Of a stretch of DNA of 64,000 bases, positions 34,142 through 37,727 are shown piece after piece; position 1 is the stretch's first letter, and every line of letters begins with the position of its first letter. The DNA comes from Pseudanabaena sp. FACHB-1998. Lineage in GTDB: Bacteria; Cyanobacteriota; Cyanobacteriia; Pseudanabaenales; Pseudanabaenaceae. A program made the position numbers and the translations under genes. The stretch lies in contig NZ_JACJQA010000016.1 in NCBI RefSeq assembly GCF_014696355.1, forward strand, positions 1 to 64,000, in the 5' to 3' direction. The notes beneath the pieces are model-generated. The model did not search any database. It saw nothing but the letters and a program-made list of their open reading frames with translations, and had not been told where the DNA came from.

Positions 34142-35425
34142 ATGACACCTAACCTTGCAAGAACTATTAATCGTCGTAAATTTATTGGACTTTCCACATT
34201 ATTTCTATTGGGAGCCTGTGGGGCGCAAACCACACAAACAGCTAATCCATCAGGCAAAAGCAAAATTGTTTTTTGGACTATGCAACTAAAGCCGCAGTTC
34301 GATAAATATATGACTGACTTAATCACCGCTTTTGTGAAGGAAAACCCCACAGCAGAAGTGGAATGGGTAGATATTCCTTGGGGAGAAATGGAAACTAAGA
34401 TTTTAAGCTCGGTTGCTGCTAAAACTGCCCCTGATGTGGTTAATCTCAATCCTCAGTTTGCTTCTAAATTGGCTGAGAAAAAAGCCTTATTAGATATGGG
34501 TACAATTTCCGAAGCAGACAAAGCTAGTTATTTTCCTAATATTTGGAAAGCCAATCAACTCGATAACAGTACGTTTGGATTGCCTTGGTATGTGGCTACT
34601 GATATCACCATTTATAATCGGGCTTTGTTTGAGAAAGCGGGATTAGATCCAGCCAAGCCTCCCAAAACCTTTGAAGAACTAACTAAAGTTTCAGAACAGA
34701 TTAAAGCGAAAACAGGAAAATATGCTTTTCTATTAACTATGGATGGGGGGCAAGTCCTTGAGTCGATGGTACAAATGGGAATGAAGTTGCTAGACAGTAA
34801 TGGCAAAGCTGCTTTTAATGATGCAAATGGTAAAGCTGCTTTTGACTATTGGGTAAATTTATTTGAAAAGCAATTAATTCCTCGCGAAATTCTCACCGAA
34901 GGACATCGTAAAGCAGTGGAGCTTTATCAAGCAGGAGAATTAGCCATTTTGCTCACTGGCCCCCAGTTTTTGCAAACCGTTGCTCAAAATGCCCCAGAAA
35001 TTGCCAAAGTGACTGATGTTGGCGCACAAATCACTGGTTCAACGGGCAAAAAGAGCGCCGCCGTAATGAATATAGCTGTACCGACGAACTCAACTAATCA
35101 AGCTTTAGCGGTCAAGTTTGCGCTGTATTTGACTAATGCGGAGAATCAATTGGCTTTTACAAAGGTGGAGAATCTCTTGCCTTCGACAATTAAAAGTTCG
35201 AGCGATCGCTATTTCACTGAAGCCGCTAAAGATGCGCCCTTGCTAGATCGCGCTAGAGTAATTAGTGCTTCGCAATTACCTCAATCAGAAGTATTAATTC
35301 CGCCTGCGAAGGATATTGAAAAACTGCGTAAAATTATTTACGAAGAATTACAGTTAGCGATGCTCAAAGAGAAGCCTAGTGATAAAGCGATCGCCAGTGC
35401 TGCCGAGCGTTGGAATTCGCTATAA
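34142..35425 (+). CDS. ABC-transporter sugar-binding lipoprotein, orphan
   Basis: Extracellular solute-binding protein of family 1 (maltose/sugar type). The N-terminus has a twin-arginine motif NRRKFIGLS and a lipobox LLGACGA, so it is probably exported by Tat and then anchored by a lipid. The fold signatures follow: KIVFWTMQLKPQFDKY, VEWVDIPWGEMETKIL, YVATDITIYNRALFEKAG and AILLTGPQFL. The start is ATG 34142; the open frame extends upstream to a TTG. No permease or ATPase gene is adjacent, so its transporter must be encoded elsewhere. Confidence 0.87.
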   Translation: MTPNLARTINRRKFIGLSTLFLLGACGAQTTQTANPSGKSKIVFWTMQLKPQFDKYMTDLITAFVKENPTAEVEWVDIPWGEMETKILSSVAAKTAPDVVNLNPQFASKLAEKKALLDMGTISEADKASYFPNIWKANQLDNSTFGLPWYVATDITIYNRALFEKAGLDPAKPPKTFEELTKVSEQIKAKTGKYAFLLTMDGGQVLESMVQMGMKLLDSNGKAAFNDANGKAAFDYWVNLFEKQLIPREILTEGHRKAVELYQAGELAILLTGPQFLQTVAQNAPEIAKVTDVGAQITGSTGKKSAAVMNIAVPTNSTNQALAVKFALYLTNAENQLAFTKVENLLPSTIKSSSDRYFTEAAKDAPLLDRARVISASQLPQSEVLIPPAKDIEKLRKIIYEELQLAMLKEKPSDKAIASAAERWNSL

Positions 35426-35458: not shown

Positions 35459-36892
35459 TTAGCCTTTCCATGTGCCATGAAAGCCCATTGGCACGACGCT
35501 TGGTAAACCAAGACGACAGACTGGCTCGGAATCTAGGCGATCGCTGTCAAATACCCATACTTCTGAAGATTCGCGATCGCCATCAAACACAACGGTTATC
35601 ACCCAGCCAGAATCAGGATTGACGGGATTAGACGCAAATAATGGCTCCATTGGATAGCGATTTGTACCCAGATCGGCTTCGGTCAATGTATCTGTTTGCT
35701 TGTCATAACGGGCGATCGCCCCAAATAGATCGTGATTAATCACCGCATCAGGGCGATGAATTGCCAGATAGGTATAGCGGGAGTTTTGTCCAACTTGGGA
35801 AGGCGGAACGATAGGAAATTCAGAACCCCGATCAACTAATTGCGAAGCTTCCAGAAATTCACCTGTTTGGGGATTGAGGCACATTTGCCAAAGCTTTCCC
35901 TTTGCATAGGTTTGGGTTTTACCTGAAGCGACTTCTTTGAGATATTGGTTGGTGGCAAAGTCTGGATAGCGTACTAAGTCAAAGATCAAGTTACCATCGC
36001 GATCGCTATAACCATTGCCAAAATGCCATTGAAACCAAGGTTCGGCAACATTGCGACTGACTAATTCCAGACTATGGCGATCAAATACCAAAATCTCCGT
36101 TCCCTCTTCAGGCTTCCAAGCTAATGAATCGCTGTAGCTCTTTAAATTTAGTAGCACAGGCAGTGGATTCATCCGCAGAGGTGGTACACAGAAAATCAAA
36201 TAATCTCCTGCGAGGACAAAATCATGGATCATTGGCAGCCCTGCCAAAGTTGTCTGATTCTTCTTGATCAGATTGCCATAGCGATCGCTGCGATAAAGAT
36301 TTAAGGTCGCATTTTTGCCATAGGAAATACCAAAATTAAAAATCTCGCCAGTCTGAGGATCGCGTTTTGGATGAGCAGAATAGGGAAGGTGATTTTCCAA
36401 GCCTTCCAGATTTTCTAAGCCATAGGTTTCTAAAGTCTCTAGGTTCAGCGCATGGGGCAAGCCACCTTCCCAAAGAGCCAGTAGTTTATCGGGCAGAGCA
36501 ATTACGGAAGTGTTGGCGACATTCTTCGAGGACTTGCCGAAACGCTGCCACCATGATCCTGTAGCGGTCATGCCATAATTGCCATAGATCAATTTATCGG
36601 CTTTCTCTTCTTCTATATATCTTTCAGTTTGGACATAGCGATAGGTGGCACGGGCTTGACCTTCGGCAAAGTGGACAGCCAAAATTGCACCATCGCCATC
36701 AAACCAATGTCCTACTTGCATTCCGCCACGTTCTAGTCTGGCTGGTCCATTGCGATAGAGAGAACCTTTGAGATTTTCGGGAATCTTACCAGAAATCGTT
36801 GAAAGTTGAGTGAGAGGGAATTCACTAGCTGGTTTTGCGATCGCCTTCCCCCAAGATGGTTGTGTGGCTTGTTTGTCAATAGTTGTAGTCAT
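35459..36892 (-). CDS. Carotenoid oxygenase (apocarotenoid-15,15'-oxygenase type)
   Basis: Iron-dependent carotenoid cleavage oxygenase (RPE65 family), 477 residues. The four His ligands can be placed in YSAHPKRDPQTGE, PMIHDFVLAG, FQWHFGNGY and the C-terminal GFHGTWKG. N-terminal landmarks are LYRNGPARLERGG and HWFDGDGAI. The start is ATG 36892, with AGAGA upstream; the longer frame from 36946 reads through the remains of a cupin gene. Cyanobacterial relatives cleave apocarotenals to retinal or split stilbenes; the substrate here is not predictable. A PadR regulator is divergent. Confidence 0.9.
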   Translation of the reverse strand: MTTTIDKQATQPSWGKAIAKPASEFPLTQLSTISGKIPENLKGSLYRNGPARLERGGMQVGHWFDGDGAILAVHFAEGQARATYRYVQTERYIEEEKADKLIYGNYGMTATGSWWQRFGKSSKNVANTSVIALPDKLLALWEGGLPHALNLETLETYGLENLEGLENHLPYSAHPKRDPQTGEIFNFGISYGKNATLNLYRSDRYGNLIKKNQTTLAGLPMIHDFVLAGDYLIFCVPPLRMNPLPVLLNLKSYSDSLAWKPEEGTEILVFDRHSLELVSRNVAEPWFQWHFGNGYSDRDGNLIFDLVRYPDFATNQYLKEVASGKTQTYAKGKLWQMCLNPQTGEFLEASQLVDRGSEFPIVPPSQVGQNSRYTYLAIHRPDAVINHDLFGAIARYDKQTDTLTEADLGTNRYPMEPLFASNPVNPDSGWVITVVFDGDRESSEVWVFDSDRLDSEPVCRLGLPSVVPMGFHGTWKG

Positions 36893-36905: not shown

Positions 36906-37046
36906 TTAATAGGTTCTAAGAAGAATAGGGAATCCCACCGCTTCACCGAGCCGCTTTTTTTCGCGTCCTGCCACTACTGATTTAAAGCGATCGGGATAGT
37001 TAGAACCTTTACGGTTTGGAACTTGGCTCGGATCGATGATGGTCAT
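36906..37046 (-). pseudogene. Truncated cupin-domain gene
   Basis: A short frame reads MTIIDPSQVPNRKGSNYPDR and continues with FKSVVAGREKKRLGEAVG, which matches the start of cupin proteins that begin MT-IDPSQVP and go on to a His-containing barrel. After about 38 residues it runs into unrelated sequence (FPILLRTY) and stops. The barrel with its metal-binding His residues is missing, so this is a 5' remnant created by a deletion joining it to the start of the carotenoid oxygenase gene. Its own leader is a copy of the PadR leader within the shared palindrome. Confidence 0.65.
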
Positions 37047-37049
37047 AGA

Positions 37050-37145
37050 TTTGTAATTTTAGGTGTTTTGCATATGCACTTAGTTGAATATACTAAACAA
37101 TGTATACTCAACTAAGTGCATATGTCAACACTTAAAATTACAAAA
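37050..37145. promoter_or_regulatory. Large palindrome spanning the divergent padR/cupin promoter
   Basis: The inner arms CATATGCACTTAGTTGAATATAC (37071-37093) and the complement at 37102-37124 differ at one position and flank an 8-base AT loop. The outer parts, TTTGTAATTTTAGGTGTT and its near-complement, extend the symmetry to both start codons. A twofold-symmetric site in the promoter of a PadR gene is the expected form of its operator. Confidence 0.65.
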
Positions 37146-37146
37146 T

Positions 37147-37695
37147 ATGTCTCTTGCTTACGCTCTATTGGTTTCACTGATTCAAGAACCTAAAAGCGGC
37201 TATGACCTAGCCAAACAATTTGATGGCTCGGTAGGTTTTTTCTGGCAAGCTACACACCAGCAGATTTATCGAGAGCTAACTAAACTAGAGCAGCAAAATT
37301 GGATCAATGCTGAAGCGATCGCCCAAGCGGGACGACCAGACAAAAAAATCTTCTCAGTAACCGATTTAGGTTTGTCGCATTTAAAAACATGGCTACTGCA
37401 ATCCAGTGATGTTGCATCTGTGAAAGATGAGTTTTTACTTAAAATTTATGCGGGTTATTTAATACCTGAAAATGCGATCGCGCAAAAAATCAAAGATCAT
37501 CGTCAACTGCATCAGCAACAACTGGAGATCTATCAAGCGATCGAGCAAAACTTTTTTAGTCAGCCTGAAAAATGCGGTATGGAATCGCGCTTTGCGTATT
37601 TAACTTTGCGCCGAGGAATTAATTTTGAAAAGGGCTGGATTGATTGGTGTGATGAGGCTTTATCGATATTAAAGACTTGGCAAGAGCAAAAATAA
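37147..37695 (+). CDS. PadR family transcriptional regulator
   Basis: Winged-helix regulator, 182 residues. The N-terminal domain shows the PadR signature: SLAYALLVSLIQEPKSGYDLAK (in parts), FFWQATHQQIYRELTKLEQQNWI and RPDKKIFSVTDLGLSHLKTWL. The C-terminal part (80-182) is a helical dimerisation domain of the AsR/Vir type. ATG 37147 is chosen, since upstream codons would lie inside the palindrome. PadR proteins repress genes of phenolic stress; here the regulated gene was probably the adjacent cupin and carotenoid oxygenase. The sensed compound is unknown. Confidence 0.88.
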   Translation: MSLAYALLVSLIQEPKSGYDLAKQFDGSVGFFWQATHQQIYRELTKLEQQNWINAEAIAQAGRPDKKIFSVTDLGLSHLKTWLLQSSDVASVKDEFLLKIYAGYLIPENAIAQKIKDHRQLHQQQLEIYQAIEQNFFSQPEKCGMESRFAYLTLRRGINFEKGWIDWCDEALSILKTWQEQK

Positions 37696-37727
37696 AGAAG
37701 TGGTCGCTCAGCGACCACTTCTTTATT
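37691..37727. terminator. Palindrome containing both stop codons of a convergent pair
   Basis: Two perfect 18-base arms (AATAAAGAAGTGGTCGCT and its complement) flank a single C. The left arm contains the padR TAA (37693-37695), the right arm the cobI TAA (37723-37725). Confidence 0.8.

Follow-up and report, generated by a model that had tools for sequence, protein, structure and literature searches.

The window, the whole 64,000-nucleotide stretch of DNA that was analyzed, carries a padR gene (37147..37695, plus strand) whose 182-amino-acid product is an AphA-like protein with PadR and Vir_act_alpha_C domains. In the divergent direction, on the minus strand, lie the 46-amino-acid 5' stub of a cupin gene (36906..37046), recognized by its match to longer cupin proteins of the genus, and a gene for an RPE65-family carotenoid oxygenase (35459..36892), which was identified by a domain search and is presumed to be the main target of the leftward promoter. 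The space between the two divergent start codons is taken up by a palindrome of near-perfect symmetry (37050..37145). The initial annotation had described such a 96-bp palindrome with outer arms extending to both start codons, and both points were borne out, the ends stopping 3 nt short of the cupin ATG (37046-37044, minus strand) and 2 nt short of the padR ATG (37147).

The inner arms (37071..37093 on the left and 37102..37124 on the right) are 23 nt each, complementary at 22 positions (96%) and separated by 8 nt. The 18-nt outer arms are complementary at 17 positions (94%); the left one (37050..37067) is the cupin leader and the right one (37127..37144) the padR leader, and neither arm was seen in relatives. 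The center of the outer arms is offset by 0.5 nt from that of the inner arms, and a gapped self-alignment starting at about 37044 links the two arm pairs via small indels; thus, they make up a single near-perfect palindrome with a small interruption. As single-stranded DNA, the palindrome folds at -34.5 kcal/mol against a mean of -8.3 for shuffled sequences (z of -12.1), and an equally stable fold was obtained from none of 200 dinucleotide shuffles. No Rfam families were found at the gathering score between positions 35000 and 39000.

Long near-perfect inverted repeats are typical of MITE- or REP-like elements, and other long hairpins in the padR leaders of three relatives (G002, G020, and G024) would fit the insertion of a mobile element of this kind into the promoter. 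However, the palindrome is present only once in the 4.78-Mb genome, the second match being its own reverse strand, and a mobile palindromic element, for which several copies were sought, was rejected on this count. The inner part, moreover, is conserved in place in 22 loci and holds promoter boxes, which refutes an inserted element for that part and makes it extremely improbable for the palindrome as a whole.

The window PadR matched PF03551 with 44.9 bits and PF10400 with 97 bits, both exceeding the cutoff, an architecture that we take AphA to share. Against AphA of Vibrio cholerae (1yg2) the protein aligned over residues 1 to 175 with an E value of 9.4e-33, placing ATHQQIYRELTKL opposite ASHQQVYRELNKM in what is presumably the recognition-helix region. 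A winged helix N-terminal PadR domain, a C-terminal Vir_act_alpha domain, and full-length homology to AphA were all found, assigning the protein to the AphA-like PadR proteins. The AphA box is given as ATATGCA-N6-TGCATAT (PMC3440409), and AphA sites are described elsewhere as ATGCAA-N4-TTGCAT, paired and cooperative (PMC6855506).

The inner 54 bp of the palindrome (37071-37124) contain two 20-bp AphA-type sites that lie 32 bp apart. The first, here termed unit 2 (ATATGCACTTAGTTGAATAT, 37072..37091), matches the AphA box at 13 of 14 positions, and unit 3 (ATACTCAACTAAGTGCATAT, 37104..37123) matches it at 12 of 14; among 22 close loci, 14 to 20 of the 20 positions of unit 2 and 17 to 20 of those of unit 3 are kept. 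The two dyads mirror each other because they are a single asymmetric 20-mer repeated in opposite orientations. A weak intermediate dyad (ATATACTAAACAATGTATAC, 37088..37107; 10/14), in a 16-bp register with units 2 and 3, may be a by-product of shared ATAT ends only.

The 22 close loci comprise the padR orthologs found in 21 of the 26 genus genomes, that of the window included, and one from a genome of the same family (G027); G017 has only a distant padR paralog, and four genus genomes gave no match. Named loci with the closest PadR proteins are mostly from Pseudanabaena, with one labeled Phormidium tenue, which places the genome of the window in Pseudanabaena. All 21 close relatives, like the window, have the site pair upstream of padR, with a spacing of 32 bp in 21 of the 22 loci and 34 bp in one, unit 2 having been searched for only 26 to 40 bp to the left of unit 3. 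A comparison with relatives, which the initial annotation had proposed, found asymmetric promoters as far as the outer arms are concerned; the inner arms stay symmetric across the 22 close loci, at 14 to 22 of 23 positions, with the window highest and G001 lowest at 14.

On a wider scale, a site matching at least 12 of 14 positions was found within 200 nt upstream at 24 of 30 whole-genome loci and 43 of 58 loci of the genome collection (42 of the 48 cyanobacterial ones), two sets that overlap within the genus (L057 to L070 being in-genus). Dinucleotide shuffles (50 rounds) gave means of 0.06 and 0.14 loci for the two sets, respectively, and no such site was found in 30 coding controls. Among the 34 cyanobacterial collection loci from outside the genus, 30 had the site, the exceptions being L092, L099, L101, and L104. 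Perfect 14/14 sites were present at 6 of the 58 collection loci. Loci lacking a site at the 12/14 threshold numbered 6 of 30 and 15 of 58, and two close loci, G003 and G014, stood at 11/14. Among 20 more distant padR-like genes, a subset of those found and with an approximate start for L186 and L197, none had the site at this threshold; many have related but different dyads.

The promoter elements are interleaved with these sites. A TTGACA box (37123..37128, minus strand) lies at the right edge of the inner part in 22 of 22 close loci and in 25 of the 30 loci overall, marking it as the -35 box of a putative leftward promoter toward the cupin/carotenoid-oxygenase operon. The candidate leftward -10 element, TATACA (37101..37106, minus strand, 16-bp spacer), was assigned by consensus match only, with TACATT (37104-37099, 18-bp spacer) as an alternative. 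Toward padR, the candidate -10 element TATACT (37103..37108, plus strand), likewise a consensus match only and accompanied by a weak -35 element, TTAGTT (37080-37085), reads TATACT in 18 of the close loci, TATATT in 3, and TATAGT in 1. A promoter scan of 301 bp returned 2 promoters versus 1.1 expected from shuffles and detected a rightward promoter-like pair, TTTGCA-16-TATACT (37067..37094, plus strand), that mirrors the leftward promoter; its TTTGCA was found in none of the 21 close relatives.

With the site pair and TTGACA kept in 22 of 22 close loci (promoter identity being by consensus), the inner palindrome is very probably an autoregulatory operator of the AphA-like PadR, situated in a divergent promoter, and PadR probably represses both directions. 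A double operator for PadR was one of two explanations offered by the initial annotation, and it stands for the inner arms, for which the AphA homology of the protein, the two AphA-type sites in every close locus, and the absence of the motif at 12/14 or better from the 20 distant padR-like genes all argue. We infer binding, repression, the ligand, and the copying event and mechanism described below from position, conservation, and gene content. In the proposed mechanism, a PadR dimer would occupy each 20-bp dyad; at 32 bp, or about three helical turns, the two dyads would present the same face of the DNA, so the dimers may bind cooperatively. The spacer of the leftward promoter, between its putative -35 and -10 boxes, contains unit 3, which would also cover the padR-ward -10 element, and unit 2 would cover the padR-ward -35 region together with the leftward start region. 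As the two units thereby span both promoters, bound PadR would shut both directions until released by a ligand, which may be a compound that the oxygenase consumes or forms.

The likeness to AphA of Vibrio extends from full-length homology and domain architecture to the 20-bp dyad, which is shared at 12 to 13 of 14 positions, and to the pairing of sites (PMC6855506). AphA also represses its own gene (PMC3440409), as is predicted for the window PadR from the position of its sites. Whereas AphA is a quorum-sensing master regulator of many targets, the window PadR would act at a local divergent cyanobacterial operator, neighbors a carotenoid oxygenase operon, and has no second zero-mismatch site in its genome. 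The operator type was thus already known from vibrios, and the AphA box is now placed upstream of most cyanobacterial homologs found, giving a concrete predicted operator for a cyanobacterial PadR beside a carotenoid-cleavage-type oxygenase. We know of no 96-bp symmetry in divergent or autoregulated PadR operators such as LmrR/lmrCD, and LmrR presumably differs from the window PadR in both subfamily and operator sequence. LmrR is comparable in that it binds both the promoter of its own gene and the promoter of its target (PMC4534193), which for the window PadR is a prediction. In the open-licence literature, no work joining PadR, cyanobacteria, and carotenoid oxygenase was found, nor, among the matches listed, anything on the operator of the window.

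In the genome as a whole, the padR operator is the only zero-mismatch match to ATATGCA-N6-TGMATAT, and seven further places match with one mismatch. Three of these clearly fall within coding sequence: L116 (PrmA domain), L121 (Uma2 domain), and L119 (residues 490 to 497 of an 878-amino-acid open reading frame [ORF]). L122 is close to the end of an ORF of 109 amino acids that has no domain, and L118 and L120 lie 26 to 39 codons past the longest start, ahead of or without any domain, where the true start is unsure. The seventh (L123, 1501-1520; G000:C40:128593-128612) overlaps the beginning of a glycine cleavage H gene and may be there by chance. PadR may have a small regulon beyond its own operator; we make no claim for any further target.

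The palindrome might instead function over its full 96 bp as one extended operator, with extra PadR dimers on the outer arms and their symmetry produced by selection. Dyads of this family do often recur at regular intervals: across 64 loci (30 whole-genome loci plus the 34 cyanobacterial collection loci after L070), 40 pairs are 16 bp apart and 26 are 32 bp apart, with shared ATAT ends, a spacing suggestive of dimers that alternate between faces of the DNA. A third unit is present on the left in many relatives, and the window itself has a weak dyad at 37056-37075 (10/14). However, the 16-bp ladder is in part due to the shared ATAT ends, the window lacks the third unit seen in relatives, and the outer arms fit the motif poorly, with 10/14 on the left and nothing at or above that value on the right. 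As 21 relatives also keep the operator without comparable outer symmetry, an extended operator is very doubtful. The palindrome appears to consist of two layers that differ in age, for the most part an old inner operator, with recent outer arms at its ends.

The history of the neighboring genes bears on the left leader. Of the 25 other genomes of the genus, 19 encode a longer protein whose first 39 residues are matched by the 46-amino-acid cupin ORF, and the initial annotation was therefore correct in calling it a cupin remnant. The open frame of the longer protein is at least 156 amino acids in 18 of those 19 genomes and 75 in G018, and a Cupin_2 domain is present in both of the longer proteins tested (from G004 and G024). 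In the regions of 17 relatives, the interval between operator and cupin holds an epimerase-like ORF in 10, a flavodoxin-like oxidoreductase in 3 (one of which also has the epimerase-like ORF), and a DUF1963-like ORF in 4, these families having been assigned by testing one example each. The window lacks all three, and most of the cupin is missing too. In G024, the cupin adjoins the operator, apparently through a loss independent of that in the window; G008 has no ORF of at least 140 amino acids from padR to the cupin; in G027, an oxidoreductase stub is joined out of frame to the 3' end of the cupin; and in G001, the oxygenase directly adjoins the operator. Loss of genes between operator and oxygenase is recurrent, and the oxygenase is retained in the cases seen.

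Decayed genes between the operator and the carotenoid oxygenase can be seen at 36906-37046 of the window, at about 850-1080 of L142, and at 8378-8770 of L148. Near the operon in G018 there is also a second, partial copy of the 5' part of padR, 59 residues long (G018:C103:107303-107479). G024, the leader of which has an AAAACAC stretch and which has its cupin beside the operator, was considered as a deletion-sharing sister that could fix the direction of copying; it was dropped, as both trees group it with G008 and G013 and not with the window.

The left leader of the window has the form GCAAA...ACAAATCTATG, as do 5 of 13 cupin leaders of relatives, one with a mismatch. With these cupin-leader anchors in place, it appears that the edge of the operator came to adjoin the cupin leader when the intervening genes were lost. 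The right leader retains the TCAA start and CAAAA-like end of its counterparts in relatives. Between these native stretches, the two leaders have in common a core of about 12 nt, ACACYTAAAATT, which is AT-rich. The outer symmetry gave a local score of 17 in the window versus 4 to 11 in the 21 relatives. It could be a coincidence, with AT-rich leaders that both carry an ACAAA-like end happening to share about 12 more bases, and the native-like ends (ACAAATCTATG in the cupin leaders just mentioned, CAAAAATATG in many padR leaders) and the scores of 11 and 10 in G003 and G014 (shuffle fractions of 0.002 and 0.01 of 500) lean that way. On the other hand, a score of at least 17 arose in only 2 of 20,000 dinucleotide shuffles and in none of 462 cross-genome pairs (the left flank of one genome against the right flank of another), for which the maximum was 12, and chance is thus an unlikely source of the outer symmetry.

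The outer arms thus show new symmetry, absent from relatives and beyond chance, and they are likely to be the product of a template switch. The arm-copying event raised by the initial annotation is plausible for these arms only, being absent from the 21 relatives and improbable by chance. As an operator fits the inner layer and copying the outer one, the two alternatives of that annotation were each partly right, for different layers. The combination of a two-site PadR operator with outer arms added by a template switch is well favored as a whole, leaning on the operator part. In the window lineage, deletion of the genes between operator and cupin would have brought the cupin leader up against the operator, after which replication would briefly have switched templates, the self-complementarity of the operator serving as primer, and about 12 to 18 nt of one leader would have been copied across to the opposite one, giving the 96-bp palindrome.

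Which leader was the donor was approached by comparison with 18 of the 21 relatives, three padR leaders of at least 60 nt being left out. Mean resemblance to the right leaders of these relatives was 8.9 for the right leader of the window versus 7.4 for the left, and on the left side the means were 7.1 versus 6.3, each leader being slightly favored on its own side. The nearest padR is 86.5% identical in DNA, the window lineage is isolated in both trees, and resemblance favors neither leader clearly.

Arm homogenization and spacer inversion are described as marks of template switching (PMC8604942; PMC8794818), and quasipalindrome mutations resemble the window in that the arms of an imperfect inverted repeat are made more alike by copying (PMC8604942; PMC7202029). 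The window differs in that the seed would be a functional two-site operator, with symmetry extended into the leaders of two genes, and in that its event is reconstructed from distant relatives only.

The initial annotation had pointed to copying at gene ends, and hairpins of the genus were compared between G023 and G025, using perfect hairpins with arms of at least 12 nt and flanks averaging 99.5% identity. Among the 40 with both flanks mapped, 25 were identical, 8 differed by an inverted loop only, and 2 had an inverted loop plus a change in one arm, for a total of 10 inverted loops (loci L199 to L206 and L215 to L294). The remainder comprised one compensated arm change, one length change, one one-arm change, and two loop substitutions. 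As a control, 526 of 615 random 40-bp segments, mostly not intergenic, were identical and 64 had one substitution. A 74-kb subset of the same pair with looser mapping contained 24 hairpins, 9 of them the same, 7 with the loop inverted, 5 otherwise changed, and 3 unmapped, and the 28 hairpins of G020 and G002 were divided into 2 the same, 2 inverted, 2 other, and 22 unmapped. Loop inversion in perfect hairpins looks to be much commoner than substitution; assembly error at hairpins would be another explanation of the flips.

In plastid hairpins, loop flips are described as common, with the same stem and the loop either way, mostly downstream of genes (PMC6824564). The hairpins of the genus behave alike, with the same stem and a loop in either orientation; the differences are that the organisms here are free-living cyanobacteria and that the operator itself is not flipped. 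The flipped loops concern perfect hairpins other than the operator, the center of which is oriented as in the window in all 22 loci, narrowly in G018 (5 matches versus 4) and by a clearer margin in the others. Such stability would be expected if promoter boxes hold the orientation or if imperfect arms prevent flipping. Among the matches listed, nothing in the open-licence literature described flipped loops in hairpins of cyanobacteria.

Taken with the flipping hairpins, the outer arms suggest that some regulatory palindromes may grow by copying errors and not by selection, and if so, caution is needed before equating a long symmetry with a long operator. A bolder and distinctly tentative idea is that template switching at inverted repeats may be so frequent during replication in this genus that palindromes maintain themselves, with gene-end hairpins inverting their loops while their arms stay matched and the operator having served as a seed that grew outward until two divergent genes had the same 5' leader. 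Regulatory dyads would then be both selected for symmetry and actively producing it.

Long perfect hairpins also lie between the operator and the padR start at L009, L010, and L011 (in G024, G020, and G002) and are absent in the close relative G021; those of G020 and G002 share their arms, with a one-base loop inverted, and that of G024 differs. The hairpin 3' of padR in L022 and L023 is among the perfect hairpins with loop inversion and conserved arms. Within the window, the 25 best palindromes of the 64 kb include many perfect or near-perfect hairpins, such as those at 37691-37727, 33163, 26048, and 17405, most with arms of 18 to 34 bp, and several of the hairpins have a GCGGCGCTTCGCGCCGC-like core in common and different outer arms. 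The hairpin at 37691-37727, after padR, holds the stop codons of both convergent genes.
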